Shown here: in pieces, positions 2,605 through 36,280 of the stretch | Layout of the letters: the number at the start of each line of letters is the position of its first letter | Position numbering within the stretch: the stretch's first letter is position 1 | Virus record (IMG/VR): IMGVR_UViG_3300006927_000020 | Location: 1 to 41,528 of that record | From: a virus | Direction: 5' to 3' (one strand) | Length of the DNA stretch: 41,528 nt | Notes under the pieces: model-generated | What the model was told of the DNA's origin: nothing | Databases searched by the model: none | The model's input: only the letters and a program-made list of their open reading frames with translations | Translations under genes and position numbers: made by a program

Positions 2605-3963
2605 ATGAGTGTAAAAAGAGCATTTGCATTACAAGATACATATATAGATGAACGAAGTTTAACAGCAAATCTTGGATTATCGCCAATCTTACAAGTTCAT
2701 AACATTTTTAGTACTGTTAAAGATAGAAAAGAATTTGCAAGGATATTCATCAAGTTTAATTTATCAGCTTTAACGGGATCAATTAATGCAGGTGATTTAC
2801 CCGATCCAACAACTGATTCAACTGTTTCTGCATATTTATACATGTTTGATGCTAAGCACGAGGATGAAATAGCAACTTCATTCAATATTGATGTTCATCC
2901 TTTAACACAAGAATGGGATGAAGGAAGAGGTTTAGATATTGAAGATTTAGCTGAAACAGGGTATGCGAATGCCTTATCTGCGCAGTCTACAGTAGCTTGG
3001 ACAACAACTGGTGGAAAATTTAAGATTGATGCTAGTTCTGCTACTCAACATTTCAATCATGGTGAAGAAAATCTACGTGTTAAAATTACTGATTTATTTG
3101 TTGATTGGTTAGGTGGAAATACTGGTAATTTCGGTGTTGCTATAAAAATGAGTGATGCACAAGAGATTAAGACAGGCACTAATTCAGCTTTATCTCATAA
3201 TTTCAAAAAGTTCCACGGAAGAGAAACTAATACAACAATGGCCCCATACATTCAGTTAGAATGGGATGATTCAATCAAAGATGACAGAGCAGAAATATCA
3301 TTTAATAGCACAGGTAATTTATATTTCTATAATATTGTTAATGGTCAATTACAAGATCTTAATACTACAGGCCCATTTCCGGGTAATATTACAATAAGTG
3401 GTGATAGTACATCTATTAAAACTGGATTAGTTGCCACTAGGAAGTCTAAAGGTATTTATAAATGTGATATAGGAACATTACCTCTTACATCAAATACATA
3501 TTCAACATTTAAAGATAATTGGTTTGTTTCGGCATCTCCAACTGCAAATTATGCATTTACATTTACAACATCTAATCCTGCATCTGGTTTTGATAATTTT
3601 AAAACTTCTGAATATAGAATTTCGATGCAGAATATAAAAAGAGAATATGAAAAAGGTAGCAAAGGAAGAGTAAGAATTCATATAAAAGATGATTCTACGA
3701 CATTTACTGCATTGACTGCTGCGACAACAGCAGTAACAAACTTTATTGTAACAGACGGAACAATAGAAATAAGAGAATCAACTACCGATGAAGTTGAGGT
3801 TAGTGCTTATAATATATCAAGAGATGTTAATGGTAATTTCTTTGAAATTGATACAGATAATTTATTTATTGGTGTAAAATATAATCCTGTTCTCAAATTA
3901 AATGTACGAGGCGAAACTATATATGTAAGTGACCCTGATACGTATGAATTTAAGGTAATATAA
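2605..3963 (+). CDS. Putative baseplate/tail structural protein (DNRLRE-like N-terminus)
   Basis: A 452-residue protein between the gp6-like and gp7-like genes. The N-terminal 230 residues resemble the DNRLRE type of beta fold: an initial QDTYIDER strand, a conserved-looking LGLSPILQVHN, then FARIFIKFNLSAL, and later VDVHP/TQEWDEG-like strands with a W-rich middle. The C-terminal half is beta-rich, with Ser/Thr-rich strands like other phage tail proteins. There are no enzymatic motifs. The next gene starts in its stop codon (shared base at 3963). Function as a virion structural protein is inferred from place and composition; I cannot assign a T4 gene number. Confidence 0.75.
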   Translation: MSVKRAFALQDTYIDERSLTANLGLSPILQVHNIFSTVKDRKEFARIFIKFNLSALTGSINAGDLPDPTTDSTVSAYLYMFDAKHEDEIATSFNIDVHPLTQEWDEGRGLDIEDLAETGYANALSAQSTVAWTTTGGKFKIDASSATQHFNHGEENLRVKITDLFVDWLGGNTGNFGVAIKMSDAQEIKTGTNSALSHNFKKFHGRETNTTMAPYIQLEWDDSIKDDRAEISFNSTGNLYFYNIVNGQLQDLNTTGPFPGNITISGDSTSIKTGLVATRKSKGIYKCDIGTLPLTSNTYSTFKDNWFVSASPTANYAFTFTTSNPASGFDNFKTSEYRISMQNIKREYEKGSKGRVRIHIKDDSTTFTALTAATTAVTNFIVTDGTIEIRESTTDEVEVSAYNISRDVNGNFFEIDTDNLFIGVKYNPVLKLNVRGETIYVSDPDTYEFKVI

Positions 3964-4433
3964 TGTTACTTAATGAAATATTAGATAGACCATATCCTTG
4001 GAAATGGCATAGGAAAGATAATCGCGAATGGTGGGGAACTTTTGCAAAAGAACCTGCACCAGGTGAAAAAATAAAGCACGAAGATTTATATACAGTTCAA
4101 ATAGAAAGTATAGATGATCCTAGTGTGAGGTCGCAGACGGCCGTTTGGGAAATATCATTTAGTGACGGAGCAGGAAGACAAGGTGTTACAAAGACTGGTA
4201 ATGAATTTAAGGTATTTGCTACTATTATGGATATAGTTAAAGATTTCTTGAAGAATAAGAAACCAGAATATGTAAGTTTTAGTGGTAAAGAAGCTAGTAG
4301 AGATAAATTATATAGAAGGATGATACAGAAGTATGCGAGCAAATGGGGTTATGGATTGGTAAAGGCACAAAGAATTACCGCTGATATTGATCCCGAAGAT
4401 GTCGCTACTTCATTCGTGTTAAAGAGAAAATAA
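3963..4433 (+). CDS. Hypothetical protein with a short leader-like N-terminus
   Basis: A 156-residue basic protein of unknown function, overlapping the previous stop codon by one base and ending one base before the next ATG. It begins MLLNEILDRPYPWKW, a short hydrophobic/acidic peptide followed by an aromatic-rich stretch. The middle (residues 40-85) is a probable beta sheet. The last third, with KEASRDKLYRRMIQKY followed by GYGLVKA, looks like the end of a small alpha/beta domain. The N-terminal peptide resembles those of several other proteins in this window (see findings). It could be a minor virion or injected protein. Confidence 0.75.
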   Translation: MLLNEILDRPYPWKWHRKDNREWWGTFAKEPAPGEKIKHEDLYTVQIESIDDPSVRSQTAVWEISFSDGAGRQGVTKTGNEFKVFATIMDIVKDFLKNKKPEYVSFSGKEASRDKLYRRMIQKYASKWGYGLVKAQRITADIDPEDVATSFVLKRK

Positions 4434-9033: not shown

Positions 9034-9903
9034 ATGAGTCTCATAAATTTTGATTTAAATAGAGATGTCGCAGATTCAGTAATAGAGAATAAAACATCAT
9101 TTGAAATTGCTTCATTATCTGCTGCTCAAGCAAAAAATATTAATGTATTTGTTGTTGAAACGACTTCAACAGGATTTCTTTCTAATGCACAAGGAACAGC
9201 TACAACTATTCCTTTAAGTAGTGCTTTTAGGCATATATCTAATTACTATTTTTCTTCGACTGCAAGCAACGTGCTTCCTATTGCACATGATAATACTTCA
9301 ACTACAGGTTTAGTAAGAAGTTTACAGATTGGAAGAACAACTCAAGATGATGCAATTGTTTCTGGTACTGTTACTGCTGTATTTGCTTTTGGCACAACTG
9401 GAAATAATACATATATTGATATTCCGGAAGAAGCAATTACAGGTTCTGTCGGTAGAAAGGGTGCACTAGTTTCACAAAGTAATACATCTAATGTTGTTGG
9501 TACGATATTTTATGAATCAGGTTCATTATTATTCCACGGTGGTACTGCATGGCCTCATTTCTTAGTAAATTCATTATCTGGGTTTACATTTGGTGCTGCA
9601 GCATCAGCAGGTAAAGTTGTATGTACATCATTATCATTTAAATCGTTGAATAAATTACAAAGAACTACATTCTTTTGTAGAGCATTTAACAAAGAGTTTA
9701 ATTATACAAATAATCCATCATCAATTAGCGATACTGTTAACGGTACAATAACAGCTTCATTAACATCAAATCCAAGAACTTATATAACAACTGTTGGTTT
9801 ATTTGGAATAGATGGTGATTTATTGGCAGTTGGAAAAGTTTCAAAGCCTGTTAAAAAAGCATTTGATAATGAAGTCACGTTAGCGGTAAATTTGCAATAT
9901 TAA
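9034..9903 (+). CDS. Tail structural protein with shared C-terminal module (copy 1)
   Basis: A 289-residue, Ser/Thr-rich beta protein starting after a good AAGAGGA site. Its last 70 residues (EFNYTNNP ... TYITTVGLFGIDGDLLAVGKVSKPVKK) form a module that recurs at the ends of the proteins at 10663-12855 and 13403-14224. The three are paralogues in tandem, separated only by an endonuclease and a 2H phosphoesterase. The N-terminus also shares the feel of the 13403 protein (short strands, YFSS). Probably a peripheral baseplate or fibre-base protein; the module may bind a common partner in the tail. Confidence 0.8.
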   Translation: MSLINFDLNRDVADSVIENKTSFEIASLSAAQAKNINVFVVETTSTGFLSNAQGTATTIPLSSAFRHISNYYFSSTASNVLPIAHDNTSTTGLVRSLQIGRTTQDDAIVSGTVTAVFAFGTTGNNTYIDIPEEAITGSVGRKGALVSQSNTSNVVGTIFYESGSLLFHGGTAWPHFLVNSLSGFTFGAAASAGKVVCTSLSFKSLNKLQRTTFFCRAFNKEFNYTNNPSSISDTVNGTITASLTSNPRTYITTVGLFGIDGDLLAVGKVSKPVKKAFDNEVTLAVNLQY

Positions 9904-9957: not shown

Positions 9958-10662
9958 ATGCTAAAAATATGTGAAACTTGTAAAGAAGAATTCAACGCTA
10001 GATTAAGTAAAAGAAAATACTGTTCTAGAAAATGTGCTAATAAAAAAGCTTGGAATGCAGGTTTAGATACTAGTGATCCTAGAATAAAATCTTATACTGA
10101 AAAAATGACGTCTACCGTTAGGAAACAATACGAAAACGGTAGGCGTTCATGGATAGAAGGCAAAGGCCACAATAAAGAAATAAGAAATAAAATGAGTAAA
10201 ATTGTTTCAAAACAGTATGAAGATGGCAGGGAACCTTGGAATAAAGGTTTAACAATAGAACAATATCCAGATACTGAAAGATCCAGAAAGAATTTTTCAG
10301 ACGGGTGGTATACAGAAAAAAGAAAAGCTTCTTTTAAAGGTTTTGGTTCTAAATTAGAATTATTTTTTGAAAAAGAATGTTTGGAAGAAAACTTTTTGTA
10401 TACAAAACAGAAATGTGTAGAAGGAAAATTATTTGATTTTGCTATAGGAAATGTATTAATAGAGGTTGATGGAGATTATCATCATTGTAATCCTAAAAAA
10501 TACACACCAGATTCTGTTTTACAAAAACAAACAATAATAAATGATCATATTAAAAATTCTATAGCTCTTAGAAATGGATTTAAAATACTAAGATTTTGGG
10601 AAACAGACATATATGAAAATCCTGAAGCTATTAGAAATAAAATAATGCAGGAAATAGATTAA
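9958..10662 (+). CDS. Free-standing homing endonuclease (zinc finger, NUMOD3, Vsr-like)
   Basis: 234 residues. Residues 4-30 form a zinc-ribbon-like motif (CETCKEEF ... RKYCSRKCANK). Two repeats of basic NUMOD3-like DNA-binding segments follow (KMTSTVRKQYENGRR, KMSKIVSKQYEDGRE). The C-terminal 100 residues are a Vsr/PDDEXK-type nuclease: FDFAIGNVLIEVDGDYHH, with the acidic pair and E-V-D-G core, then LRNGFKILRFWETDI. It sits between two paralogous tail genes with a good GGAG ribosome site and ends exactly at the next ATG. It probably spreads by cutting phages that lack it at this position. Confidence 0.88.
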   Translation: MLKICETCKEEFNARLSKRKYCSRKCANKKAWNAGLDTSDPRIKSYTEKMTSTVRKQYENGRRSWIEGKGHNKEIRNKMSKIVSKQYEDGREPWNKGLTIEQYPDTERSRKNFSDGWYTEKRKASFKGFGSKLELFFEKECLEENFLYTKQKCVEGKLFDFAIGNVLIEVDGDYHHCNPKKYTPDSVLQKQTIINDHIKNSIALRNGFKILRFWETDIYENPEAIRNKIMQEID

Positions 10663-12855
10663 ATGTTTAAAGAATTTACTGAATCTGAAATTGGACCTAT
10701 TATATATAACAATAAGAAGACTATAATTGTATCCGAAGATTCTGCGTCTGCAAGTAATGTTCATTTTTTCACAGGTATTCGTTCAATAGGTAAAATTAAG
10801 TTTTTTGATATTACCCAACCTCCAGCATTTGGTTTATCATTAGATAGCGAACTTAAATATCAATTTCTTTGTGATAAATCAACTATTCCTGGTTCTTCAT
10901 TAACAGCAGAAAGAACATCGGGTATTTTCTTATCAGATAATGATCAAGAATATGTGAGTTCTTCAAATGCAAATTCTTCAGCATCACATCAATCAATATT
11001 CAATTATACAAAAGGATACTTATATAGAGATAATAATAAATTTGTATCCACGACAGCATTCCAAAGTGCATCAACAGCAATTACAACTTCAATTATTAGA
11101 ATGATTTCAGTTAGAAAGGAACTTTTTAATTCTTCAATTGAACCTAATTCAATCAGATTGGAAATGAATTTAAGTAATACATCGGTAACAGGTGTTGTTA
11201 TAGGTTCTGCTACAGGATTAGTTACTGCTGTAGATTTTAAGAACCCAATAAGAGGTCAATCTGGTTTAGATAAAAATTCATATTTTGCAGTACCGTGGAC
11301 ATCAATGGCCGGTGCTGCATCAGCAAATGGGTCTTCAATTGATGTTGCAACATCAGGTATTACTATCGAAGCAATTATAAGGCCATATAATAACGGTGTG
11401 TTATTATGGAGAAGATTAGCAAGTGATAATTGGGCTGGAACAAATGTAGAATCACAAAATTCATTTATGAAACTTGAATTAACTAAATCGGCCGATGATA
11501 CAAGAGATGCATTTAGATTTAGTATTAGATCTGTTAATGCTAATGGAGATTTTTCCGAAGATTTTGCAAAATCAAATGTTCAAACATCAGGTTTATTTGT
11601 TCCAGATGATGTGGGTATAAATATATTTGATGGTAGATTTCACCATATAATTGTTACATGGGGTGTTAGTGGTGTAGATAATCAAGCTACTACAACAGAA
11701 TCTGGTGCTGGTGCAGTGTTTGGATATATAGATGGTTATAAGTTATTGAATAAAGAACAGGTTGAACCTAGATTAGGTGGTGAAGATGATGCTAATGGGC
11801 CTGCAATTCAAGCAAACATGTTTGAACAAAGAATTCCTATAAGATCAGTACCAATAGAGACCCATGATCCAAAGGATGCATCTCCATCTGGTAATACATT
11901 ATTCATTGGCTTATCTAATTATAATAGAGAATTAAGTGATACAACTGGTGATAGAGGTGATCCTAGTTCATTATCATCAGATGCAAATATTCGTGGGCAA
12001 TATGATGGTCAAGTTCAAAGTGTTAGATTCTGGAATATAAGATTTAATGATGGGTCTACTGGCATAACAGACAACATAAATAAAATAGTAAGTGGATCTA
12101 CATGTGCTGGTATATCATTTGATAATTTTCATAATACAACATTATCTGGACATAATAATGTAAGAGCATGGTGGTTATTTAATGAAAGAAATACATTAAG
12201 TGCGGACGATAGATCTGCATTTTCTAATACCGGAACTATATATGGAAATAGTAATATACGTTTATATGATATAAGAGATAATACAGTAACAGGTGATTTT
12301 GGAGATTCTTTTACTGATTCTGGAATTTCTGCAGTAGACAGAACATATCTATATTCTGATAGGCCTGAACCTGGTATTGTTGGTAATGATATAATGGGTG
12401 GTAGAATAGTTAGGCAAGCATTTGATGGAACTGCAACAAGAGTTGGTACTATATTTTATGATCTTGGTTTAATTATTATTGATGCTGATGATCCTAATGC
12501 ATCACTGAATTTTTTGTGGCCTTCTTCTGGAACTACTGGTGATTTTGGATTTGCTGTTACAGGTAATCTTAATACTGCATTTAATGTTAATAGATTTAGA
12601 TTTAATTCTGTCGATAGTAGAGGAAGATTGATGACAACTTCGGTTGCATCTGGATCAGAATTTAATTATACAACAAATCCAACTGGTACAAATCCAGAAA
12701 CAGAAGAGACTTTGTTCGATGAGCCAACATCTTATATAACTTCAGTAGGATTTTATAATGATCAGAATGAATTGCTAGCAATAGGCAAATTATCAGCTCC
12801 TGTGAAAAAAGATGAATCGAGAAAATTAGAAATTCAAGCAAAGTTAGATTTCTGA
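10663..12855 (+). CDS. Large tail/receptor-binding candidate with LamG domain and shared C-terminal module (copy 2)
   Basis: 730 residues. The start follows the endonuclease stop directly with no clear ribosome site, suggesting translational coupling. Residues about 200-460 look like a LamG/concanavalin jelly roll: a long strand GITIEAIIRPYNNGVLLWRR, later FHHIIVTWGVSG and GYIDGYKLL, ending GQVQSVRFWNIRFND, the usual last strands. Residues 666-730 carry the shared module (EFNYTTNP ... SYITSVGFYNDQNELLAIGKLSAPVKK). The combination of lectin-like domain and tail-anchoring module suggests a glycan-binding tail protein. No hydrolase motif was seen. Confidence 0.8.
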   Translation: MFKEFTESEIGPIIYNNKKTIIVSEDSASASNVHFFTGIRSIGKIKFFDITQPPAFGLSLDSELKYQFLCDKSTIPGSSLTAERTSGIFLSDNDQEYVSSSNANSSASHQSIFNYTKGYLYRDNNKFVSTTAFQSASTAITTSIIRMISVRKELFNSSIEPNSIRLEMNLSNTSVTGVVIGSATGLVTAVDFKNPIRGQSGLDKNSYFAVPWTSMAGAASANGSSIDVATSGITIEAIIRPYNNGVLLWRRLASDNWAGTNVESQNSFMKLELTKSADDTRDAFRFSIRSVNANGDFSEDFAKSNVQTSGLFVPDDVGINIFDGRFHHIIVTWGVSGVDNQATTTESGAGAVFGYIDGYKLLNKEQVEPRLGGEDDANGPAIQANMFEQRIPIRSVPIETHDPKDASPSGNTLFIGLSNYNRELSDTTGDRGDPSSLSSDANIRGQYDGQVQSVRFWNIRFNDGSTGITDNINKIVSGSTCAGISFDNFHNTTLSGHNNVRAWWLFNERNTLSADDRSAFSNTGTIYGNSNIRLYDIRDNTVTGDFGDSFTDSGISAVDRTYLYSDRPEPGIVGNDIMGGRIVRQAFDGTATRVGTIFYDLGLIIIDADDPNASLNFLWPSSGTTGDFGFAVTGNLNTAFNVNRFRFNSVDSRGRLMTTSVASGSEFNYTTNPTGTNPETEETLFDEPTSYITSVGFYNDQNELLAIGKLSAPVKKDESRKLEIQAKLDF

Positions 12856-12863: not shown

Positions 12864-13403
12864 ATGTTGTCTTTAGAAAAAATATTTGAAAAACAAGATA
12901 TAGATTGTTCTTATAGTAATATTCAGATAGATATGCATGATAAATTTGCACAAGAAGTTATTGATTGGTCGGCATCTAATATAATTGATAAGATAGTATA
13001 TGATAAAGAAGGTAAATATGGTAGAGAGGATGAAATTCATTGCACTATTTTATGTGGTATATTAGATAAAGATCCAGAAAAAATCAGGAAACTTAGTAAA
13101 TTTTTAAAGCCCTTCGCAATAAAAATTGGTACAATGTCCGCTTTTCGTTCAAAAGAATATGACGTGTTAAAATTAGAAGTTATAAGTGGAGAATTACATA
13201 AAATTCAAAGAGCCATAGAAAGTAATATACCGAATCATAATACATATTTGGATTATTATCCACATATTACAATATCGTATGTAAATAAAAATTCAGTAGA
13301 TAACTTTATTGGCAATAACAATTTTGAGGGAAGGATATTTAAAGTGAATACAATAACATTTTCTAGTAAAGATGGATTTAAAGAAAAATTGAGATTAGTA
13401 TAA
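12864..13403 (+). CDS. 2H phosphoesterase, candidate anti-CBASS protein Acb1
   Basis: 179 residues with two H-x-T motifs, HCT at 59-61 (IHCTILCGI) and HIT at 134-136 (PHITISYV), the catalytic pairs of the 2H phosphoesterase superfamily. The sequence before the first motif (KYGREDEIHCT) and the overall size resemble T4 gene 57B/Acb1, which cleaves the cyclic nucleotides of CBASS defence. Other 2H proteins (RNA ligase/CPDase-like) are possible. It is inserted between two paralogous tail genes and overlaps the next start by one base. The N-terminus (MLSLEKIFEK) resembles other short leader-like peptides here. Confidence 0.75.
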   Translation: MLSLEKIFEKQDIDCSYSNIQIDMHDKFAQEVIDWSASNIIDKIVYDKEGKYGREDEIHCTILCGILDKDPEKIRKLSKFLKPFAIKIGTMSAFRSKEYDVLKLEVISGELHKIQRAIESNIPNHNTYLDYYPHITISYVNKNSVDNFIGNNNFEGRIFKVNTITFSSKDGFKEKLRLV

Positions 13404-14224
13404 TGAGTGACCAAACACCTACACTCCCGATTAAAGTTAATTCGGATATTCAATCATCATATGTGCTATTAAATGAACGTGACGTAGTATATACGAATTT
13501 TGAAACATCAAGATTACTTACTAGAACGGGAACAACAACTGGGGCTGATACTTTGGCAACATCTGTTTGTGCTTTAACTGCTAATTTAACCTCTGCATTG
13601 TCTGGTGCATATAGATCAACTAGGATGTTACTTCATAAAAATCATTTTGAAAATAATACTACAGGATTGACAGTTGGAATTGGTGTATTTTCATTGAGAA
13701 AAAGATTTTTTGATAGTCAAATAGAACCTGGTTCTTTGACAGCTACTTGTAGTGGCCGAGATGCTGGTGATTATATAGATTCTGGTAGTGGTGAATTAAT
13801 TGATGCCCGTGGATCGACAGCAGTCGGTTCATTTATAAATTCAGATGGTATGTTTGTTGTTACATCAAGTCAATCTGCAATGGTGTTATCAATAACTTCT
13901 GTAAAATATAGAGCATGTGTTCTTAATACTGAATTAAGTGTTTATTGTAAAGCTGACCCTGATGAATTGAATTATACATTAAATCCTACTGCATTTAATA
14001 CTACGGCAAATGGTGATTGGATGACAGATCCATTTACAGGTTCTACTTCTGCAGCTGAATATTTCCCTGATTTAGTTTCTAGTGGTATTAAGTTTTCACC
14101 TAGATTATCAAGTGTAGGATTATATGATGATTATAATAATTTATTGGCAATCGCAAAATTTTCACATCCGATAAGAAAACCAACAGATACACCAATTACA
14201 ACACGTGTAAGAATAGATATATAG
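13403..14224 (+). CDS. Tail structural protein with shared C-terminal module (copy 3)
   Basis: 273 residues, third of the tandem paralogues. The body is Ser/Thr-rich beta, with segments such as LLHKNHFENNTTGLTVGIGVFSLRK. The module begins near residue 188 (DELNYTLNP) and ends RLSSVGLYDDYNNLLAIAKF followed by SHPIRKPTDTP. Here the insertion inside the module is longer than in copy 1. There are no enzymatic motifs. It starts within the stop region of the 2H gene. Probably a peripheral baseplate protein. Confidence 0.78.
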   Translation: MSDQTPTLPIKVNSDIQSSYVLLNERDVVYTNFETSRLLTRTGTTTGADTLATSVCALTANLTSALSGAYRSTRMLLHKNHFENNTTGLTVGIGVFSLRKRFFDSQIEPGSLTATCSGRDAGDYIDSGSGELIDARGSTAVGSFINSDGMFVVTSSQSAMVLSITSVKYRACVLNTELSVYCKADPDELNYTLNPTAFNTTANGDWMTDPFTGSTSAAEYFPDLVSSGIKFSPRLSSVGLYDDYNNLLAIAKFSHPIRKPTDTPITTRVRIDI

Positions 14225-14234: not shown

Positions 14235-14624
14235 ATGAAACTTAGACAATTATTTGAGAGTCAAGTAGGGTGGATAAATGGTAATGGTAAACCACTGCTT
14301 GTTGCAGGTTTTAATCATGAACAAGTAGTTGAAAAATACTTAGGGACCCAATCTGATCCTTATGGTGCAGCTTTAAAAAAAGGATGGATAAAATTATATA
14401 CATATTATGATGATGATACGGATAGTACTGATATTACATTGGAATTTATGAAAGGTGTAGCCGATAAAAATAATATCAAAAAAGCTATTGGAAAATTAGG
14501 GAAATCTTTAAAAAATGCAGAAACTTATACAATAGAAATAGTAGATAAAAACTTTAAAGTTAAAGAATCAGGTACGTATTATAATTTGATGGACTTTAAT
14601 AAAATAATAAGGAAATATGTATAA
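14235..14624 (+). CDS. Hypothetical small protein with leader-like N-terminus
   Basis: 129 residues starting MKLRQLFESQVG, a short amphipathic peptide of the type M-K-x-L-x-x-F-E also seen at the start of several other proteins here. The rest is a small alpha/beta protein (AALKKGWIKLYTYY, a helix with IKKAIGKLGKSLKNAE, then a YTIEIVDK strand). It is placed between two tail genes and overlaps the next start by one base. I do not recognise the family; virion association is only inferred from position and the N-terminus. Confidence 0.75.
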   Translation: MKLRQLFESQVGWINGNGKPLLVAGFNHEQVVEKYLGTQSDPYGAALKKGWIKLYTYYDDDTDSTDITLEFMKGVADKNNIKKAIGKLGKSLKNAETYTIEIVDKNFKVKESGTYYNLMDFNKIIRKYV

Positions 14625-17362: not shown

Positions 17363-18778
17363 ATGGATTCTAATATAATAGAGATATACTCTTCTAAAGA
17401 GATAGCTTTAGAAAAGTTGAATGATATTTATAACAAAGATTCAATTATAATCGTATTAAAAAGTGATCAATATTTAGAAAATGTAATTAGTATAGGTTTT
17501 TGTATTAATAAAGAATTCTTTCATTTCCCAGTTGATGATAATAAAGAATTCTGGCTTCAAAAAATTATAGATATTATAGAACAAAAAGAACTTAAAGTAT
17601 ATTCATATGATATCAAATATCTTTTTAGTGTCTTTTTAAAGAATAATATTAACATAGAGAGAATTGATCTTTTTAAAGACGTAAGTTTTTACTTATATGA
17701 TATGTTTGGGAATAATACACCTTTATTCTATGAAAATATATTCAATATAACAGATGTAGAACCCATAGAAACTTCTTATATGAAGCACTATGACAGTCAA
17801 TTTAAATTTGATAATTTTCCAAATCAGGTTTTAACAGAAAAAGAATTAGATGAGCAGATTCGAACAGAACTAAAGATAATATTCAGATTAATTAACTCGT
17901 TCAAATTTAGAAAAGCCGATTATATAGATTTATATAACTTAGCTTCATATTATTATGCGCACATAGAAAATACAGGTTTTAAAATAGATCATAAGGCCAT
18001 CGATAAACATGGCTATTCAAATATATCAAAATATTTTTCAGATTATAATGAAGGTGAACATTTTGCAAAAGCAAAATGGAATTTTGATAGAACTTCAACC
18101 GGTAGGTTGTCATCTAAATTTCATAATTTTCCAAAAAAGTATAGTGATATAATAGTACCACGTCATACTGATGGTGTGTTAATGGGTTTAGATTTTACAG
18201 CATTTGAATTTAAAACTTTATTGGCATACTTAGAAGTTAAATTTGAAGAAGATGATCCTTATGAATATATTGCATCCCAGACACGATATAATAGAAGTGC
18301 AATAAAAAATACAATGATAAAATATATTTATGGTTCTTCTGAAATAGATTATTTTGTTCTTAAAAAACTTAAAGAAGTTTTTGATATAGACAAAAAATTA
18401 AATTTATTAATAATAAATGCAAGAAAAACAAAATCTATTACAACACCTCATGGAAGAATAATAAAATATAAAGAAGAAAGTGAAGTAAATAGAAAGGCTG
18501 TCAACAATATTATTCAAAATATGGCAACATATTATATAACATATGTTACAAGTATTATAACAAATATATTGAAGAAAGAAGAAAATGGGCTTCAAGGTTC
18601 AAATGTAATAGCAACAGTATATGATGAAATAATTTTAGATATTCATCCAGAACATATTGATTTTATAAAAGCTAACATTATTAAATGGATAGATTCTATT
18701 GATAAGATAAAGAATCCATACGTTAAATTTATACCAAAAATTACAATTGGTAAGAATTTAGCAGAGTTAAAAAAATGA
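17363..18778 (+). CDS. Compact family A DNA polymerase with decayed exonuclease domain
   Basis: 471 residues, versus about 600 for Klenow and 704 for T7. Polymerase motifs are all visible: STGRLSSKFHNFP near 242, motif A DFTAFEFKTLLAYL near 277, motif B RSAIKNTMIKYIYG near 311 (R-x3-K-x8-YG), and motif C VYDEIILDI near 420 with Tyr for the usual His. The N-terminal 150 residues follow the DnaQ-like exonuclease layout (KVYSYDIKYLF, then DLFKDVSFYLYDM), but the acidic DxE of motif I and the Asp of motif II are absent, so proofreading is probably lost. The thumb between them is very short. It overlaps the next gene by ATGA. Confidence 0.85.
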   Translation: MDSNIIEIYSSKEIALEKLNDIYNKDSIIIVLKSDQYLENVISIGFCINKEFFHFPVDDNKEFWLQKIIDIIEQKELKVYSYDIKYLFSVFLKNNINIERIDLFKDVSFYLYDMFGNNTPLFYENIFNITDVEPIETSYMKHYDSQFKFDNFPNQVLTEKELDEQIRTELKIIFRLINSFKFRKADYIDLYNLASYYYAHIENTGFKIDHKAIDKHGYSNISKYFSDYNEGEHFAKAKWNFDRTSTGRLSSKFHNFPKKYSDIIVPRHTDGVLMGLDFTAFEFKTLLAYLEVKFEEDDPYEYIASQTRYNRSAIKNTMIKYIYGSSEIDYFVLKKLKEVFDIDKKLNLLIINARKTKSITTPHGRIIKYKEESEVNRKAVNNIIQNMATYYITYVTSIITNILKKEENGLQGSNVIATVYDEIILDIHPEHIDFIKANIIKWIDSIDKIKNPYVKFIPKITIGKNLAELKK

Positions 18779-22260: not shown

Positions 22261-24690
22261 ATGAAAAAGTTGGAAGACGTTTTAGCATCTGTTGTCTTAT
22301 TAGCAGAAGATACAGGTATCGAACATACAAAAGCTGCAATAGAAAATGTATTGCAACAATCCCACCAAAATCTTGAGATCATTGTCGCCGCATTATTTGA
22401 CGATACTGATCTCAAGAAACTCTATAACAATAATTGGAAAGTAAAATTTCAAGATGCTGAAGAAGGTGTAGAATTTATTGCTAAAGTAATAGATGAATGC
22501 ACAGGCGATGCAATTTTTTATAAGACAGTAACTAATGTATTATGGTTCCCAAATCATATCAAGGCTCACTTGGAAGATTTTAGAACACATGCATGGAAGA
22601 ATAAATGGTCATTGTCACATATAGAAATTAGAGATGAGGATAATCCTGATCATCCGTTAAATACAATTGGGTATAGAATAGAAAATCCACCTCAATTGGA
22701 AAAAATAATATTGGATGAGATTGTTCATCTTCCCGATGTAACACCAGACTGGCCATCATGTGTTGTAAAGGATGATGACGATAATATTAATTTTATCCCA
22801 GGAAATGCATTGGTAGAATGGCATAAAGCAGAACTTAAAGGAACTATTCCAAAGGAAATTACTGTTGTACAATGGATAAAGCAGGGTGGTGAACAAGTAG
22901 CTGATGAAGACCTTGCAACAAAAATTGGTTTACCTGCAGCGACAGATGTCAAGGAAGAAAATATATTCAATCAAGAAACAGGTGAAGTTGAAATCAAGAG
23001 AAAAATTCCTACAATAGTTGGTAATGTATTTCTTGATGAACAATATAATAATGGTATAAGAAATGTTGTTAATGAAACAAAGGATATAGAAACAATTGGT
23101 ATCAAGAGAACAATGGGTATGGGTGATATTGTTCTTGTAGAACCAGTTATTAGAGCATTAAAAAGTAAATATCCGAGTGCCAAGATAACATTATATACAG
23201 CTAAACCAGCTATTGTAGATTATTTTGAAGCTAAACCAGATGATATAGTTACATTAGAAGATAATCAATTAATACAGGATTTTCTTGCTACAACAGATAA
23301 TGATGTGAAATATGACTTAGATCTTGCTTATGAATCTAGAACAGGCAGATCATTTATTGATTCTTACTTTGATACAATTGGAATGAAGGTTAATCATAAA
23401 GATAAAATTCCTAAATTGGTAGGTAGCAATCATAATGTTAAAGATTCAGTTAAAGTACCCGATTCTAAATATGTAGTTGTAGTTGGTGATGGTTCTGGTT
23501 GGATAGGAAAAACATGGAATCCTGCAGAATATACTAAAGTTGTTCAATATTTACTAGATAAGGGATATGAGGTTGTAGAACCAGGTATTGAAAATTATTC
23601 TGGACTTACTGATACCAAATGGAATAGTGCAGATTTCCCAACGTTGGTTAAATTATTGCAATTCTGTGATTTGTTTGTAGGTGGAGATAATGGGCCAATG
23701 CATATTGCTTCAGCGTTCAATAGAAAAAGAGTGTTGATTGCTGGATCAGCATTGCCATACTTTACAAACCCAAATAGAGAAGGTGTTTATTATGTACAGG
23801 ATAATTCATTAGATTGCCTTGGTTGCAAGCATAAACAATTCTTTGGAACTAATGGGCAACAAATTACATTTATGCCTCAATGTGATAATGATGAACAAGG
23901 TATATGTATGCAAACATTAAAAGCTGAACATGTAATTGGTGGCATAGAAAAGTTAATGATGAATAATCCTATTTCAATGATTGACAAGAAAACACCACTT
24001 AACTTTATGTTAAATATTCCTGGTTGGTCATATTATAAGGATGAGAAATTAGATCTTATTCAGAGAGAAAGATTAACAGAACATCCTGATCAAGATAAGG
24101 ATATCTCGACAGAATATGCTGATAGATGGGAACAGGTATATAAGGATCATGCACTTCCATTGGCAAAAGAATTGAAGAAATATACTGATAGTAAACGTCT
24201 TCTTGATGTTGGATGTAATATGGGTATATTTGTTAAAGCGGCAATTGATGAAGGGTTTGATGCTTATGGAATTGACATTAATAAGAAAAGTGTAGAACGT
24301 GCACATGAAGTATTTCCAGAATTAAAGGAAAAAATTATTGATGATCCTGATACTGATGTATGTTGTAGATTAGGTTCAGAATCACATATAAAACTATTTG
24401 ATATAATTACAGCTAATCAAGTATTAGAACATATGAGTGATCCTATAGATTTTATGGAATCAATAAAAGCTATGCTTGATGACAATGGTGTATTATTAAT
24501 TGGATCTCCATGTTGGGAAGAAGAAGGTGCACAAGAGTTATGGCATAAGTGGGGATCGTTTGGAACTGGCGAGCATACATGGATTCCTACAGAAAAATCA
24601 TTTGCAGAAATATGTAAGAAGGCCGGTTTTGATTATAAGTTAATTGAAGATACAAAGAATGGCCTTCTCTCATTATGTTACAAAATATGA
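22261..24690 (+). CDS. Three-domain GT2-like / GT9 heptosyltransferase / methyltransferase fusion
   Basis: 809 residues. Residues about 5-200 look like a degenerate GT-A (GT2) domain (AAIENVLQQSHQNLEIIVA, no clear DxD). Residues about 276-565 are a GT9 heptosyltransferase-like domain: RTMGMGDIVLVEPVIRALK, then FVGGDNGPMHIASAFN near 473, and a Cys set (CLGC...CDNDEQGIC) typical of the GT9 end. Residues about 640-809 are a class I methyltransferase of the Methyltransf_23 type (LLDVGCNMGIF, ITANQVLEHM, a GEHTWIPTEKSF tail). This suggests transfer of a heptose-like sugar followed by methylation in one protein. The next small gene overlaps by ATGA. Confidence 0.85.
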   Translation: MKKLEDVLASVVLLAEDTGIEHTKAAIENVLQQSHQNLEIIVAALFDDTDLKKLYNNNWKVKFQDAEEGVEFIAKVIDECTGDAIFYKTVTNVLWFPNHIKAHLEDFRTHAWKNKWSLSHIEIRDEDNPDHPLNTIGYRIENPPQLEKIILDEIVHLPDVTPDWPSCVVKDDDDNINFIPGNALVEWHKAELKGTIPKEITVVQWIKQGGEQVADEDLATKIGLPAATDVKEENIFNQETGEVEIKRKIPTIVGNVFLDEQYNNGIRNVVNETKDIETIGIKRTMGMGDIVLVEPVIRALKSKYPSAKITLYTAKPAIVDYFEAKPDDIVTLEDNQLIQDFLATTDNDVKYDLDLAYESRTGRSFIDSYFDTIGMKVNHKDKIPKLVGSNHNVKDSVKVPDSKYVVVVGDGSGWIGKTWNPAEYTKVVQYLLDKGYEVVEPGIENYSGLTDTKWNSADFPTLVKLLQFCDLFVGGDNGPMHIASAFNRKRVLIAGSALPYFTNPNREGVYYVQDNSLDCLGCKHKQFFGTNGQQITFMPQCDNDEQGICMQTLKAEHVIGGIEKLMMNNPISMIDKKTPLNFMLNIPGWSYYKDEKLDLIQRERLTEHPDQDKDISTEYADRWEQVYKDHALPLAKELKKYTDSKRLLDVGCNMGIFVKAAIDEGFDAYGIDINKKSVERAHEVFPELKEKIIDDPDTDVCCRLGSESHIKLFDIITANQVLEHMSDPIDFMESIKAMLDDNGVLLIGSPCWEEEGAQELWHKWGSFGTGEHTWIPTEKSFAEICKKAGFDYKLIEDTKNGLLSLCYKI

Positions 24691-24782
24691 GGACATTGAT
24701 AGAAGAATTTAAAGAAGCTTATAATAAAAAAGCAGATATTTTTGTTATTCTTTATGACGAAGATATTGAGAAAGAAGGGTAA
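24687..24782 (+). CDS. Small 31-residue protein between glycan genes
   Basis: ATG at 24687 overlaps the previous stop (ATGA) and the frame ends at TAA 24780-24782, two bases before the next GTG. The product starts MRTLIEEFKEAYNKK and is acidic. The tight ATGA coupling and exact fit between two genes support translation. The N-terminus fits the leader-like pattern seen elsewhere in the window. It may only serve to couple translation to the next gene. Confidence 0.5.
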   Translation: MRTLIEEFKEAYNKKADIFVILYDEDIEKEG

Positions 24783-24784
24783 AA

Positions 24785-25249
24785 GTGGACACCATAGGAA
24801 ATTTAATTGATCGTCTCTGTATTTTAGAAAAAAGAAAAGAAATTTTAGAAGAAGATAGAGCTATTAATCATGAAGTTATTGATGAGCTTGAAGAACAGAG
24901 AGGTTGGATTGTTGCCGATATGGGTAGAATTACAAAAGCAATAAGAAAAGGCAAACATCCTGGCATACTTAAGAAAAATAAGATATATGATCCAGATATA
25001 AAAGAAGAAGAATGCAATAATCTTATTAATCTAATTTTCAAGTTAGACTTAGTAACAAGAAAATTATGGGAACTAGAAGACAAAAGAAGGGATTCGGATA
25101 ATATAACTCCAGATGATCGTCTTGAAGCATGTGATCAAGTCTCTAAATATAATAAACAACGTAATAATTTAATTGATAGAATAGATGAGGTATACGTTGC
25201 ATCATTAAAGAAAGCAAAAGTAAATGAAGATACTTATTTCGGGTGCTAA
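24785..25249 (+). CDS. DUF4254-like helical protein
   Basis: 154 residues from a GTG start (AGAAGGG ribosome site upstream). Almost entirely helical, with IGNLIDRLCILEKRKEIL at the start and VTRKLWELEDKRRDS plus YNKQRNNLIDRIDEVY at the end, which resembles DUF4254 proteins found near bacterial surface-glycan glycosyltransferases. There are probable coiled coils. The last 26 bases overlap the RmlD-like gene. The function of the family is not known to me; its placement supports a role with the glycan enzymes. The family call is by resemblance only. Confidence 0.7.
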   Translation: MDTIGNLIDRLCILEKRKEILEEDRAINHEVIDELEEQRGWIVADMGRITKAIRKGKHPGILKKNKIYDPDIKEEECNNLINLIFKLDLVTRKLWELEDKRRDSDNITPDDRLEACDQVSKYNKQRNNLIDRIDEVYVASLKKAKVNEDTYFGC

Positions 25250-26093
25250 AGGTCAATTAGTAAAAGAAATTATTGACTTAGCTACTCAACAAGAAAAAAT
25301 TGAGGTTCATCCGTATTCAAGGGATGTTTGGGATATAACTAACTATGATAAGAATAGAGAAATATTTGAGTTAGTGGAACCTGATGTGTATATTCATGGA
25401 GCTAGTATCCATCATGTAGCAGATATACATAAAGATTCTAGATTGGCAGCAAAAGTAAATATCGCAGCTACTCATAATTTGATAAAGCTCTGTAATGAGA
25501 TGGATAACTGTAAATTCATAAATTTCTCCACAGATTATATATTCAGTGAAAGATCTTTTGAGCCACTTACAACAAAAACAGCATTTGATGAGAGTTCAGA
25601 AAGAACACCTTTCAATTTATATGGTGTGATGAAGCATGCTATAGAACAAATGTTAGAAAATGATTGTAATAAGTGGATGAATATTAGAGTATGTGGATTA
25701 TTTGGTAAGTATGGATCAAGGGCAAAGAATGATTCTAATTTTCCTTTGATGATTTTAGATAAGATAAAAAATAAAGAAGAAATTAAAGTAGTTGATGATC
25801 AAATTATAACAGTAGGATATTGCAAAGATATAGCACACAATATTATAACGATACTTAATGTGGCAAGTGGCCACTATCATATGATGAATGAAGGTATATT
25901 GACGTGGTATGATTTAGCCAGCTTTATTTGTAATATAAAAGGTTATAATAACATAAGTAAAGTAAGTTCAACAGAATTCTATTCAGATTTTAAAAGAGCT
26001 CAAACGACAGCATTAGAAAATAAAAGATTACCAAAATTTCCAGATTGGAGAGACGCAATAGTAAGATTTATGAAAGAAATTGGAGAAATTTAA
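25224..26093 (+). CDS. RmlD-like NAD(P)-dependent sugar-nucleotide reductase
   Basis: 289 residues, the usual size of dTDP-4-dehydrorhamnose reductase. The nucleotide-binding motif is ILISGAKGQLVKEI (GxxGQL type typical of RmlD). A strand NFSTDYIFSER supplies the catalytic Thr/Asp region, and YGVMK gives the YxxxK pair near residue 131. Late motifs such as GHYHMMNEGILTWYDLA fit RmlD (here NEG). It would reduce a 4-keto sugar nucleotide. No RmlA or RmlB is visible in the window, so the substrate may come from the host. It starts inside the DUF4254-like gene; AAAGAAAG upstream acts as the ribosome site. Confidence 0.85.
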   Translation: MKILISGAKGQLVKEIIDLATQQEKIEVHPYSRDVWDITNYDKNREIFELVEPDVYIHGASIHHVADIHKDSRLAAKVNIAATHNLIKLCNEMDNCKFINFSTDYIFSERSFEPLTTKTAFDESSERTPFNLYGVMKHAIEQMLENDCNKWMNIRVCGLFGKYGSRAKNDSNFPLMILDKIKNKEEIKVVDDQIITVGYCKDIAHNIITILNVASGHYHMMNEGILTWYDLASFICNIKGYNNISKVSSTEFYSDFKRAQTTALENKRLPKFPDWRDAIVRFMKEIGEI

Positions 26094-26177
26094 TTTTGAA
26101 TGGTTTTATATTATTACTAAATAGAAAGGAATTTCTATGTTAACAACAGCATAGATAAAAAGAATGGAGAAATAGAA

Positions 26178-26366
26178 ATGCAATGGTTAAAAGATAGATA
26201 TGCAGAAAGAACATCCTGGGATGGCGGCGTATTAATTGGAATCGGTGTAGTTAGTTTATTGTTTTCACCATGGATACAATATTTGGCCTATGTAGCAATT
26301 GTTTATGGTGTCTGGACACTAATAAAGAAAGAACGCGAAGATGACGATCGTGGAGGCACTCCATAA
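26178..26366 (+). CDS. Small membrane protein
   Basis: 62 residues with a charged N-terminus (MQWLKDRYAERTSWD), a hydrophobic stretch from about residue 17 to 47 that could form one long or two short membrane helices (VLIGIGVVSLLFSPWIQYLAYVAI split by a Pro), and a charged tail (KKEREDDDRGG). The GGAGAAATAG site before the ATG supports translation. It lies between the RmlD-like and RmlC-like genes. It could sit in the host inner membrane near the glycan machinery; holin-like roles are also possible but nothing specific shows it. Confidence 0.65.
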   Translation: MQWLKDRYAERTSWDGGVLIGIGVVSLLFSPWIQYLAYVAIVYGVWTLIKKEREDDDRGGTP

Positions 26367-26401
26367 GGAAGAGCTCTCCCTGTAAAGTAGGAGAAAGTAT
26401 A

Positions 26402-26446
26402 ATGAGACTTATTTCAGAAATAACAAAGGAATGGAGATTATTGTGA
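26402..26446 (+). CDS. 14-residue leader peptide coupled to the RmlC-like gene
   Basis: AGGAGAAAGTATA precedes an ATG that opens a 14-codon frame, MRLISEITKEWRLL, ending TGA at 26444-26446. The TGA overlaps the GTG at 26443 (GTGA), and the GGAG ribosome site of the next gene is inside the leader. The peptide resembles the N-termini of other proteins in the window (for example MLLNEI, MKLRQLF). It may be a coupling leader, or what is left of a gene whose body was lost. Confidence 0.45.
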   Translation: MRLISEITKEWRLL

Positions 26447-26997
26447 GATTTCATATGGACGATCGCGGTATAAGATACTGTGACATATTTCCAGAAATAG
26501 GAAAAGGTGATATTAATATTACAATAATTGAAAGTGGAGCTGTAGCACTCTGGCACCGTCATGAAAATCAAACAGATTATCAGTTTGTAATTAAAGGATC
26601 ATTAAAAATTGGTATAGCTAATCTGCCATCTCGTTACCACTGCGACGATGGTTCAGATAGAATGGAAAAAGATTGGCAAGAAAAATATTATCATATTCAT
26701 AAAGATTCATATAATGCTAGTCTAGCAAGGTTGCGCAGCGCACCGAATAATAAATATATAAAATATTCTAAAATATTTGAAAAAACAGATGCAAGATGTG
26801 ATTGGCATTATTTATCAGAACGTAATGCAAATCAGGGCCCTTTATTTATTCCTGCAGGCCTGTGGCATGGATGTTATAACTATACAAACGAACCAGCAAT
26901 TCTTTGTTATCATATAACAAATAAATGGGATGGAACTGATGAAGAACGCTGCGATCCAGATATATTAGGCTGGAAATACGAACGGATCGTTAAATAA
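26443..26997 (+). CDS. RmlC-like cupin, putative sugar-nucleotide 3,5-epimerase
   Basis: About 184 residues from GTG at 26443; an ATG at 26431 in the same frame would give 188, but GGAG at 26433-26436 is six bases before the GTG, so GTG is preferred. The fold is a cupin: residues HRHENQTDYQFVIKG contain the paired His, later FIPAGLWHGCYNY and the RmlC-like end (NKWDGTDEERCDPDILGW). The start RFHMDDRGIRYCD is like the RmlC start (DDRG). It would epimerise a 4-keto-6-deoxy sugar nucleotide before the RmlD-like reductase. The next gene shares its last base. Confidence 0.8.
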   Translation: MRFHMDDRGIRYCDIFPEIGKGDINITIIESGAVALWHRHENQTDYQFVIKGSLKIGIANLPSRYHCDDGSDRMEKDWQEKYYHIHKDSYNASLARLRSAPNNKYIKYSKIFEKTDARCDWHYLSERNANQGPLFIPAGLWHGCYNYTNEPAILCYHITNKWDGTDEERCDPDILGWKYERIVK

Positions 26998-28208
26998 TGA
27001 AAATTGGTGAAGGAAGATGGCATGCTGGTTTTGGAACCGACATTAAATATGATTATAAGGAAGATCTAAAGAAAATGAAGGAAAGAAACGATCGATATAA
27101 AGCTAACAAAGTCCGAACGTTATTTGATGATTTTGAAGATAAGAAAGAAGTGCATCTTATTACTGGCGGTCTTGGCCATGTTGGTTCTTATATTGTTGAA
27201 TATCTAGCAAATACTCGCCGTCATTGTACTATCGTTGTTGTTGACAATTTTTATAATGGTAAAATTGAAAATCTTAATGATTCAAGGCCAATTACATCGG
27301 CAAAAGGAATACAAATTATAGTTAAAAAATGTGATATAAAAACATTTTCAGATTTGGAACATGTGTTTGAAGAGTTCAAGCCTGATTTTGTATATCATCA
27401 AGCATCAATGTTAACATTAGATTCTAAACAAGATAGAATAAAGGCTGTTGAAGTTAATATACTTGGTAGTGCAAATGTATTTGAATGTTGCATAAAATTT
27501 AATATAAAGAAACTAGTATATGCATCATCAGCATCAGTCTTTGGTGATCCTCAATATATTCCTGTAAATGAAGAACATCCAAAACAATGTAAATTACTTT
27601 ATGGAGCTACAAAAAATGCTACAGAAGAATTGGCAAAATCATGGTGTGATGAAGAAGGTTTGAAATTTGTTGGCCTTAGATATTTTAATGTTTATGGTCC
27701 TAGACAATCAACTTTAAATGTATATACTCAAATAGTACCAAAGTGGATTAATGCATTTATTGATGGTAAATCAATTACAGTTTATGGTGATGGTTCTCAA
27801 ACAATGGATTTAATTTATGGAAAAGATATTGGTAGATTGAATGTTCTAGCGATGCGACATGAAAATTTGTTTAGAAATATAAATGATAGGCCTAAAGGTT
27901 TGCCTCGTGGACATCATCGGCCGACGAGCGTTCGTGCATTTGATGGATTTATTAATATAGGTTCTGGAATTCAAACATCTGTTATGGAACTTATGAGGGC
28001 TATGACAAAAGAATTAGAGAAACAAGGTATTGATACATCATTATCAAAAATAGATTATATAGAACATGATCCAAATTTAGTTAAGAGAAGGCAGTGTGAT
28101 ATAACACGTCAAACAGAATTTTTGAATCCAAGAAACTTGATAACTGTAGATGAAGGAATGAGATATACTATCAAGGAGATTCTTCGTGAACGAGCTATAC
28201 TTAAATAA
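26997..28208 (+). CDS. Extended-SDR NAD-dependent sugar-nucleotide epimerase
   Basis: 403 residues with a 40-residue N-terminal extension before the Rossmann motif TGGLGHVGSYIVEYL. Catalytic parts: ASSASVFGDPQ and YGATK (YxxxK), then GLRYFNVYGPRQ and VYGDGSQTMDLIYGKDIG, all typical of UDP-glucose 4-epimerase-like enzymes. The C-terminal INIGSGIQTSVMELMRAM fits. It is not a 4,6-dehydratase, as the TDE motif is lacking. A short GC-rich stretch (24/40 at 27901-27940) encodes PRGHHRPTSVRAF, which looks like an insertion between the usual strands. It overlaps the next gene by 23 nt. Confidence 0.88.
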   Translation: MKIGEGRWHAGFGTDIKYDYKEDLKKMKERNDRYKANKVRTLFDDFEDKKEVHLITGGLGHVGSYIVEYLANTRRHCTIVVVDNFYNGKIENLNDSRPITSAKGIQIIVKKCDIKTFSDLEHVFEEFKPDFVYHQASMLTLDSKQDRIKAVEVNILGSANVFECCIKFNIKKLVYASSASVFGDPQYIPVNEEHPKQCKLLYGATKNATEELAKSWCDEEGLKFVGLRYFNVYGPRQSTLNVYTQIVPKWINAFIDGKSITVYGDGSQTMDLIYGKDIGRLNVLAMRHENLFRNINDRPKGLPRGHHRPTSVRAFDGFINIGSGIQTSVMELMRAMTKELEKQGIDTSLSKIDYIEHDPNLVKRRQCDITRQTEFLNPRNLITVDEGMRYTIKEILRERAILK

Positions 28209-28656
28209 TCTTACAAGGATATTAGATATTGTAAGATCAAAATATCTACGTAATAAATCTACGAGAAAAATTGTTTTTACAAGTGGATGTTTTGATATAT
28301 TGCACCGAGGTCATATAGAATTATTTAAGGCAGCTAAAAAAACAGATACATTTTTAATAGTTGGTGTAAATTCTGATAGAACAATCAAAAAATTAAAAGG
28401 GCATACTAGGCCTTATATTAATCAGAGTGACCGTGTAGCAATATTAGAAGCAATAAAATATATTGACTATGTGCAAATATTTGATACTATGTCTGTTTTA
28501 CCTCTTATAGAATTAGTAAAACCTGATATATTAATAAAAGGTAGAGATTATACAAATAAAAAAGATATAGTTGGTTCGAAATTTGTAGAATCATATGGTG
28601 GTAAAGTTGTTATTTACCCTTTACATAAAAAGTGTTTCCATAATAGATTATTTTAA
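28186..28656 (+). CDS. HldE-C/RfaE2-like heptose-1-phosphate nucleotidyltransferase
   Basis: 156 residues from a GTG that follows AAGGAG by seven bases. The cytidylyltransferase fold shows TSGCFDILHRGHIELFKAAK (HxGH), VGVNSDRTIKKLKG, RPYINQSDRVAILEAI and LIKGRDYTNKKDIVG, then SYGGKVVIYPL, matching the adenylyltransferase domain of HldE. It would turn heptose-1-phosphate plus NTP into a nucleotide-heptose. The end (KKCFHNRLF) differs from the usual STT.II tail. It overlaps the epimerase by 23 nt and ends at the sulfotransferase ATG. It works with GmhA and HddA encoded 7-8 kb downstream. Confidence 0.87.
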   Translation: MNELYLNNLTRILDIVRSKYLRNKSTRKIVFTSGCFDILHRGHIELFKAAKKTDTFLIVGVNSDRTIKKLKGHTRPYINQSDRVAILEAIKYIDYVQIFDTMSVLPLIELVKPDILIKGRDYTNKKDIVGSKFVESYGGKVVIYPLHKKCFHNRLF

Positions 28657-29226
28657 ATGGCAAAAATGTTTCGTAAAAAAGTATATGGTATAGGTTTACC
28701 AAGGACAGGTTCTACATCTTTAAGCAAAGCATTAGAAATTTTAGGATATGAAGGTATCCATAAATGTATATTACACCCAGATAGTAAAGAAATAAATGCA
28801 AAGGTAAATACACCTTTTATTTGCACGAGCGTAGGCGGTCGCAACGCGGTCCGCTCCTCAGATACGTATAAATCATACAGCATTGATAATAGATATTGGA
28901 AAAATTATCAAGATATATATAAATGGGAACCAGATGCATTTTTTATTTTGACAACTCGTGATGCAACAAGTTGGAATAAATCTACAGAAAAATTTAATGT
29001 TGATTGTTTTGCAACTGTAAAAAGAAACAGAACATGTAAACTAAATAAAATTCCATACATATCTGATTATCAAAACGAGGTAGATGTATTTTTTTATAAT
29101 AATCCTTCAAATTATTTAAATTTCGATATATTTCAAGGAGATGGATGGAAAGAACTTTGTAAATTCCTCCATGAGGATGTTCCTCGATGGAAATATTTCC
29201 CTAAGGTATTAAAAGAAAATGAGTAA
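28657..29226 (+). CDS. Sulfotransferase-like protein
   Basis: 189 residues. The 5'-phosphosulfate loop GIGLPRTGSTSLSKALEIL is near residues 11-29, and a 3'-phosphate motif is in FILTTRDATSWNKSTEKF (Arg and Ser conserved), as in PAPS-dependent sulfotransferases of the Sulfotransfer_4 type. It is short for the family (usually 200-300), so it may be a minimal form. It could put sulfate on a sugar, using host PAPS. It contains a 40-base GC-rich patch at 28821-28860 (27/40) in otherwise AT-rich DNA. The next ATG lies inside its last codons. Confidence 0.75.
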   Translation: MAKMFRKKVYGIGLPRTGSTSLSKALEILGYEGIHKCILHPDSKEINAKVNTPFICTSVGGRNAVRSSDTYKSYSIDNRYWKNYQDIYKWEPDAFFILTTRDATSWNKSTEKFNVDCFATVKRNRTCKLNKIPYISDYQNEVDVFFYNNPSNYLNFDIFQGDGWKELCKFLHEDVPRWKYFPKVLKENE

Positions 29227-30202: not shown

Positions 30203-30866
30203 TATATGTATGATAACTCTAAATGATATTGAATGCATAGAAAAAACATTACAAAACTTATGCCCATTCATAAATGATGAATTTATTATAATTGATGGAG
30301 GTTCTTCAGATGGCACTTTAGAGTTAATAGAAAAATATGCAAACAATTATAATATTATGTTATTCTCAGAATCTTGGAATGATGATTTTTCATATCAGAA
30401 AAATTTAGCTATTGAAAAAGCAAAAAATAAATGGATATTATGGGTAGATGCAGATGAAACTTATGAATATGTTTTTCTTTGTCAACTTCCTTGGTATATA
30501 TGGGATGCAGAAAGAAATGGTGTAGATTGTATCTACGTACCAAGAATCAATACAATAGAAGGATTACCAGATGAAGAGTTACAGAAATACACTCAGGAAC
30601 AAGGTTGGCAAATGTCAGGATTCCGTTGGATCAATTATCCTGATACCCAACAACGAATTTTCAAGTCAAACTGCAAATTCGTCGGTCGTTCTCATGAACG
30701 AATTGTTGGAGCATCTAGAGAAAGTTCTCTTGTTGGGCAACACATACTTCACCCCAAAACAAAAGACCGTCAACAACGTGGCCTTGATAGAGAAAAACAC
30801 CTTTATGAACATGAAGCACAAAATGTGTTAGATAGAATTATGGAAGGAGAAGAAAAATATGGCTAG
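30192..30866 (+). CDS. GT2 family glycosyltransferase
   Basis: 224 residues with a GT-A fold: MKYSICMITLNDIECIEKTL, FIIIDGGSSDGTLELIEKY, SYQKNLAIEKAKNKWI, LWVDADETYEY (DxD motif near residue 92), and RIFKSNCKFVGRSHERI later. This is the pattern of the WaaE/KdtX-like GT2 group that acts on inner-core LPS. It overlaps the GT9-like gene upstream (11 nt) and the HAD gene downstream (8 nt), so all three are translated in a chain. No membrane segments, so it works with soluble or membrane-facing acceptors. Confidence 0.88.
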   Translation: MKYSICMITLNDIECIEKTLQNLCPFINDEFIIIDGGSSDGTLELIEKYANNYNIMLFSESWNDDFSYQKNLAIEKAKNKWILWVDADETYEYVFLCQLPWYIWDAERNGVDCIYVPRINTIEGLPDEELQKYTQEQGWQMSGFRWINYPDTQQRIFKSNCKFVGRSHERIVGASRESSLVGQHILHPKTKDRQQRGLDREKHLYEHEAQNVLDRIMEGEEKYG

Positions 30867-33854: not shown

Positions 33855-33902
33855 TAAAAGACAGAATCAATGCCTAGCCTCAGATATGAAAGGATATAGA
33901 GA

Positions 33903-34912: not shown

Positions 34913-34913
34913 T

Positions 34914-36235: not shown

Positions 36236-36280
36236 GTATTTCTAATAATCTCGAAAAATTCATTTACATGGAGAAATTTA

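Follow-up and report, generated by a model that had tools for sequence, protein, structure and literature searches.

What is a gene resembling an anti-CBASS nuclease doing among phage tail genes, and is its product such a nuclease? The question arises from a 41,528-base IMG/VR virus contig of a marine phage (the window, here taken over its full length), in which a plus-strand ORF at 12864-13403 encodes, from an ATG start, a protein of 179 amino acids, P0001. The first-pass annotation had read it as an Acb1-like 2H phosphoesterase located between two paralogous tail genes, either a transferable anti-defence gene in a permissive tail locus or a 2H enzyme of another kind. The existence of the gene is confirmed, and an identical copy is present on one further IMG/VR contig.

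P0001 scores 31.7 bits against the Pfam family PF13563 (2_5_RNA_ligase2; curated cut-off 27), which is matched by all eight members of alignment A1. It also matches PHROG 755 (E = 2.2e-7), a family that is labelled "RNA ligase" but is that of T4 57B/Acb1, T4 57B itself scoring 228 bits. An eight-sequence alignment, searched against IMG/VR, yielded 315 encoded relatives; given these three results, the ORF is not a chance one. The scores against the Pfam Acb1 family (PF23474, 22.9 bits, curated cut-off 27) and the NCBIfam equivalog TIGR02258 of ThpR/LigT (28.2 bits, cut-off 65.7) are below threshold, and a phmmer search of PDB with the single P0001 sequence gave no match.

Both expected HxT motifs are present, at residues 59-61 and 134-136. 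The first, H59-C-T61, closes the KYGREDEIHCT segment (residues 51-61) and, together with the GRE motif upstream, forms GREDEIHCT (13020-13046, plus strand); the second, H134-I-T136, lies in HITISY (13263-13280, plus strand), which also contains Y139. In alignment A2, comprising P0001 and 63 diverse relatives, H59, T61, G65, F94, V101, P133, H134, T136 and Y139 are invariant, and the GRE motif is nearly so (G53 in 62, R54 in 58 and E55 in 59 of the 64 sequences). The pattern used for the search contained PH[IVL]T, that is, the second motif, and hence only the first HxT provides independent evidence of conservation. The catalytic tetrad is intact across the relatives, and P0001 has all the catalytic residues of a 2H protein. 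Among 84,980 cellular genomes merely seven loci of this family were found, all on MAG contigs, and this near absence from cells speaks against a housekeeping function in the host. The gene is AT-rich (GC content 0.257, compared to 0.316 in the window). Its GC3 nevertheless resembles that of the neighboring genes, so that codon composition gives no clear sign of a foreign origin.

The AF2 model of P0001 built on A2 (pLDDT 92.5; without an alignment the pLDDT is 36 and the model is useless) has a 2H phosphoesterase fold with about 15 loose N-terminal residues, and in it H59, T61, H134 and T136 match the Acb1 tetrad H44, T46, H113 and T115. By its fold and tetrad, P0001 is predicted to be a catalytically competent 2H phosphoesterase. 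In VIA-align comparisons, LigT proteins and CPDases are the best overall (Z 14-15.4, with drCPDase at 15; 2.4-3.0 Å over about 150 residues, 13% identity), and Usb1 has Z 14.2. The FBB1 Acb1 (7t26) follows with Z 12.4 (3.1 Å, 20% identity), the BCSR5 Acb1 with 11.8, and the penguinpox cGAMP phosphodiesterase with 11.3. Since Z depends on length and Acb1 is the shorter protein, the ranking of folds alone cannot separate Acb1 from LigT. The structure does not place P0001 with RNA ligase-like 2H proteins only, as FBB1 Acb1 aligns over 133 of its 137 residues.

Sequence comparisons lean the other way. The nearest solved structures for the 64-sequence profile are the Acb1 proteins of BCSR5 (9q2g, E = 1.7e-7) and FBB1 (7t26, 4.1e-5), ahead of a LigT-like protein (5.9e-4), while hhalign gives similar scores for T4-type Acb1 and E. 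coli ThpR. Some relatives exceed the Pfam Acb1 cut-off (L059, 35.3 bits; L011, 32.8 bits). The resemblance of KYGREDEIHCT to T4 Acb1 noted in the first-pass annotation is a fair one, as T4-type Acb1 carries PREKIHST in place of GREDEIHCT. Around the second motif, Y-x-PHxTxxY is common to the P0001 family and Acb1, whereas the LigT-like proteins 2fyh and 1vdx have HxTLxR. In Acb1 the ligand is contacted by Y12, W74, F107, W147 and E141, and residues 145-152 form a C-terminal lid (Hobbs et al., PMC9117128). In the alignments, the W74 position is occupied by F94 in all 64 sequences, and that of F107 by Y128 (tyrosine or phenylalanine in 47 sequences, histidine in 16); in the region of Y12, on strand 1, the family has YSS, YSC or YGC, the exact register being ambiguous. 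The lid residues E141 and W147 have no counterpart in P0001, whose tail is FSSKDGFKEKLRLV; an EPL motif occurs in none of the 64 C-terminal tails and tryptophan in four, and the fold alignment with 7t27 stops at chain residue 140.

Thus the fold points to 2H, the sequence is nearer to Acb1 than to LigT, and neither settles the substrate. The Acb1-like assignment holds at the level of profile kinship and nearest solved structures, but not at the Pfam cut-off or in the lid, and the fold is slightly nearer to LigT/CPDases. The P0001 family is a phage-specific intermediate between Acb1 and the LigT/2'-5' RNA ligase proteins rather than a proven Acb1. Because the Pfam Acb1 cut-off is missed and the lid with E141 and W147 is lacking, we do not file P0001 as Acb1, though it may well work in an Acb1-like manner.

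The 2H gene belongs to a tight plus-strand operon. It starts 8 bases past the gene of a 730-aa tail protein (10663-12855), and its stop codon overlaps the ATG of the next tail gene (13403-14224) by one base (TAATG). These two neighbors are indeed paralogs, sharing a C-terminal domain that is also found in a third plus-strand gene of the set (9034-9903); baseplate wedge genes are located upstream in the window. The same tail operon, with proteins 49-70% identical, is present in a relative phage (L129), which lacks exactly three genes of the window: the homing-endonuclease-like gene at 9958-10662 (plus strand; PHROG 559/1271 HNH, PF04480), the 2H gene at 12864, and a gene for a 129-aa protein at 14235-14624 (plus strand). 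Only three bases lie between the two tail genes that flank the empty 2H site. Since the operon is otherwise the same, the 2H gene is an accessory insertion, or cargo gene, of a late tail operon. In this respect the proposal of a transferable gene stands, but packaging into the virion and injection are the likely better explanation of the late position than a permissive locus. A scan for T4 late promoters (TATAAATA) gave 12 matches against 12.8 expected, that is, chance level.

Evidence for a virion context comes from the relatives. Peptidase_S77, the family of the T4 gp21 prohead protease, was found in 23 of the 52 contigs searched, nearly all of which bear relatives. On 14 of the 15 contigs that reach 50 kb, it lies no more than 11.5 kb from the 2H gene, compared to 3.1 expected under uniform placement, a proximity that reflects conserved synteny rather than independent events, as the contigs are partly related. 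The window, a 41.5-kb fragment, contains no head genes and no S77 prohead protease. In L086 a portal protein (125 bits) is fused to the 2H domain and has a sub-threshold MuF match at its far end, and in L056 and L082 the domain is embedded in polyvalent proteins with LPD38 or ART-PolyVal. In a PHROG scan of the neighbors, the 25 families listed out of 60 include those of the tail tube, tail fibre, portal and terminase. The T4 acb1 gene (57B) itself adjoins ipI as well as 57A, the gene of the tail-fibre chaperone, and so a late or structural neighborhood is no argument against an Acb1-like function.

Other domain combinations were observed in the family. Five relatives (L011, L016, L021, L032 and L041) have a weak Nuc_deoxyri_tr2-like domain before the 2H domain, with scores of 16.7-23.9 bits (cut-off 30) from L011, L032 and L041, and L016 and L021 alike by their N-terminus; this could be a two-step nucleotide-degrading fusion. 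In L059 (2767-7980), a 1738-aa phage protein combines a histidine phosphatase with the 2H domain that exceeds the Acb1 cut-off.

If P0001 is packaged, its N-terminus may carry the signal. Residues 1-13 have low pLDDT, lie outside the 2H fold and are unspanned by the fold alignments; within the tag-like segment MLSLEKIFE (residues 1-9; 12864-12890, plus strand), I7-F8-E9 fits the L/I-x-E rule for cleavage by T4 gp21 (PMC9026906), with K rather than A, G or S as the next residue. Such a triplet, whose background rate is about 10-14%, occurs within residues 6-14 in 13 of 38 standalone relatives, against 54 of the 395 remaining ORFs on those contigs. On its own, the P0001 tag is thus a weak candidate packaging signal. 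At 12864-12869 the ATG is followed by a TTG codon that is better spaced from an upstream AAGGG; a start one codon later is possible and would leave the tag unchanged.

In five relatives (L014, L038, L072, L081 and L085) the N-terminal tag of the 2H protein is also found on unrelated neighboring genes; in tests of such sharing, p ≤ 0.05 was reached at 6 of 38 loci and most loci were not significant. A quick-search tree places P0001 together with L014 and L038 (support 93), both from tag arrays. About ten genes in a row in L081, unlike one another in their bodies, start with MI(K/N)LK/R. Judging by their sequences, the arrays of L081, L038 and L014 look like head-packaged cargo arrays. The near-identical N-termini are MIKLKxLLxE in L081 (6001-12156), MIKLKNILLEG in L038 (2522-6512) and MAKFKxF in L014 (3772-7038), and the unrelated bodies that carry them include ADP-ribosyltransferase-like and HAD-like ones. 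The product of the window gene at 14235-14624 begins with MKLRQLFES, closely similar to the L081 tag MIKLKSLFES, and this gene is likely a second cargo gene.

Given the proximity of S77, the shared tags, the portal fusion and the polyvalent fusions, we propose delivery by the virion. P0001 would be made late in infection, would be directed to the prohead by a short, cleavable peptide at its N-terminus, similar to the T4 capsid targeting sequence, and would enter the next host together with the injected DNA. There it would cut a host nucleotide ahead of phage gene expression, the likeliest target being a cyclic or oligo-nucleotide defence signal, through attack by the 2'-OH aided by both HxT motifs. 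The analysis establishes the fold, the catalytic residues and the accessory status, and for the relatives the conserved late or head neighborhood and the virion-protein fusions; the packaging of P0001 itself and its substrate are inferred. We favor this combined account tentatively, at somewhat under even confidence. Considered separately from packaging, a cyclic or oligo-nucleotide signal is the substrate with a little better than even probability, and RNA or cyclic-phosphate ends are a fair way below even.

The same enzyme could act on a defence signal without being packaged, as a true Acb1-type anti-CBASS protein made in the infected cell from a gene that occupies a permissive insertion site. 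The empty site in L129 is compatible with this, and T4 57B, which adjoins tail and head genes, acts from inside the cell (PMC9117128). Yet the lid is absent, and the S77 neighborhood, the tags and the virion fusions of the family would be left unexplained, which makes this version unlikely. A somewhat stronger competitor, though a doubtful one, is an injected or late RNase or 2',3'-cyclic phosphodiesterase of the Usb1 or LigT type that processes or destroys host RNA such as tRNA or CRISPR RNA. The top fold matches and the PF13563 score agree with it, and an RNase role was favored for 2H domains fused to portal and MuF proteins (Iyer et al. 2017, PMC5512222); against it, solved LigT-like proteins are more distant than Acb1 by sequence profile, the TIGR02258 score is far from the cut-off, and HxTxxY replaces the HxTLxR of 2fyh and 1vdx.

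Two further roles have less to recommend them. RNA repair, in which 2',3'-cyclic ends would be opened for a phage RNA ligase after the action of host anticodon nucleases, is performed by 2H enzymes in other systems (PMC7824862, PMC9503650), and in Maribacter phage Colly_1 a "Swiss Army Knife RNA repair" HAD gene lies a few kb from a distant 2H relative. However, an RNA ligase above cut-off was found in 6 of 24 relative contigs and always 68-202 kb from the 2H gene, whereas the prohead protease lies at a distance of 6-11 kb, and we rejected an RNA-repair neighborhood as the ligase is never near. The polyvalent class was judged likewise in PMC5512222, and the late position would be poor timing; RNA repair is thus very improbable. 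Reuse of the fold for a structural or assembly role in the tail would be in line with the place in the tail operon and the translational overlap with a tail gene. Still, the catalytic tetrad is intact in all relatives, the gene is dispensable in L129, and it also occurs in close-knit phages whose tails are unrelated, so that we give this role hardly any credence.

The preferred account, an injected signal-degrading enzyme, has a precedent. According to Iyer et al. 2017 (PMC5512222), 2H domains occur in polyvalent, MuF and portal proteins as well as in solo phage genes, with no RNA ligase alongside, and injected 2H proteins with RNase or anti-signal activity were proposed there; in jumbo-phage analyses of the Burroughs and Aravind type 2H proteins are listed among counter-nucleotide enzymes (PMC7824862). 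Injection of phage 2H enzymes with such substrates is therefore already known as a proposal. The present family shares with those proteins the domain, the late or virion context, the portal and polyvalent fusions and the missing RNA ligase partner; P0001 itself shows just the late tail context, and differs in being encoded on its own, within a tail operon, and in having a short N-terminal tag. What we add is the profile kinship to Acb1, the consistent location next to the prohead protease, the arrays of tagged genes and the empty site. With the Acb1 proteins (T4 57B, FBB1 and the BCSR5 phosphodiesterase 9q2g/9q2y), P0001 has in common both HxT motifs, RE-x-IHxT, Y-x-PHxTxxY, aromatic residues at the W74 and F107 positions and PHROG 755, but it is about 30 residues longer and has the additional tag. 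Compared to E. coli ThpR and drCPDase, it is set apart, despite the superposition, by low identity and by a phage-only distribution. The T4 internal proteins Alt and IPI-IPIII likewise have a short L/I-x-E tag on unrelated cargo, with an S77 protease nearby in the relatives of P0001, though the window contains no such protease and packaging of the 2H family is a proposal.

More speculatively, and with doubt, such enzymes may constitute a widespread phage family, packaged in the head with a swappable capsid-targeting peptide and encoded in cargo arrays and even in tail operons, that would put CBASS-like signalling out of action as soon as the DNA is injected. If so, anti-CBASS enzymes would be delivered ready-made with the genome before the host alarm builds, whereas Acb1 needs to be expressed first; tag arrays, such as the MIKLKxLLxE genes of L081, would be a sequence handle for injected effectors of large phages; and a late-gene position would be no argument against an early, anti-defence role.

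Several other features of the window may be mentioned. One operon slot (3963-4433 in the window, 701-910 in L129) is filled by differing short proteins, MLLNEILDRPYPW... and MKLREVANVYDQ..., and is a possible cargo slot. Adjoining the late tail genes, a 471-aa ORF (17363-18778) covers a family A-like DNA polymerase in its C-terminal portion only (PHROG 17, positions 1119-1204), that is, a split or partial polymerase. Finally, 22261-41528 is occupied by a long series of genes of the sugar-nucleotide, glycosyltransferase, epimerase, kinase and isomerase types, recognized only by eye from the translations and including a GHMP kinase-like gene (35228-36235); the series is read as a surface-glycan cluster carried by the phage.
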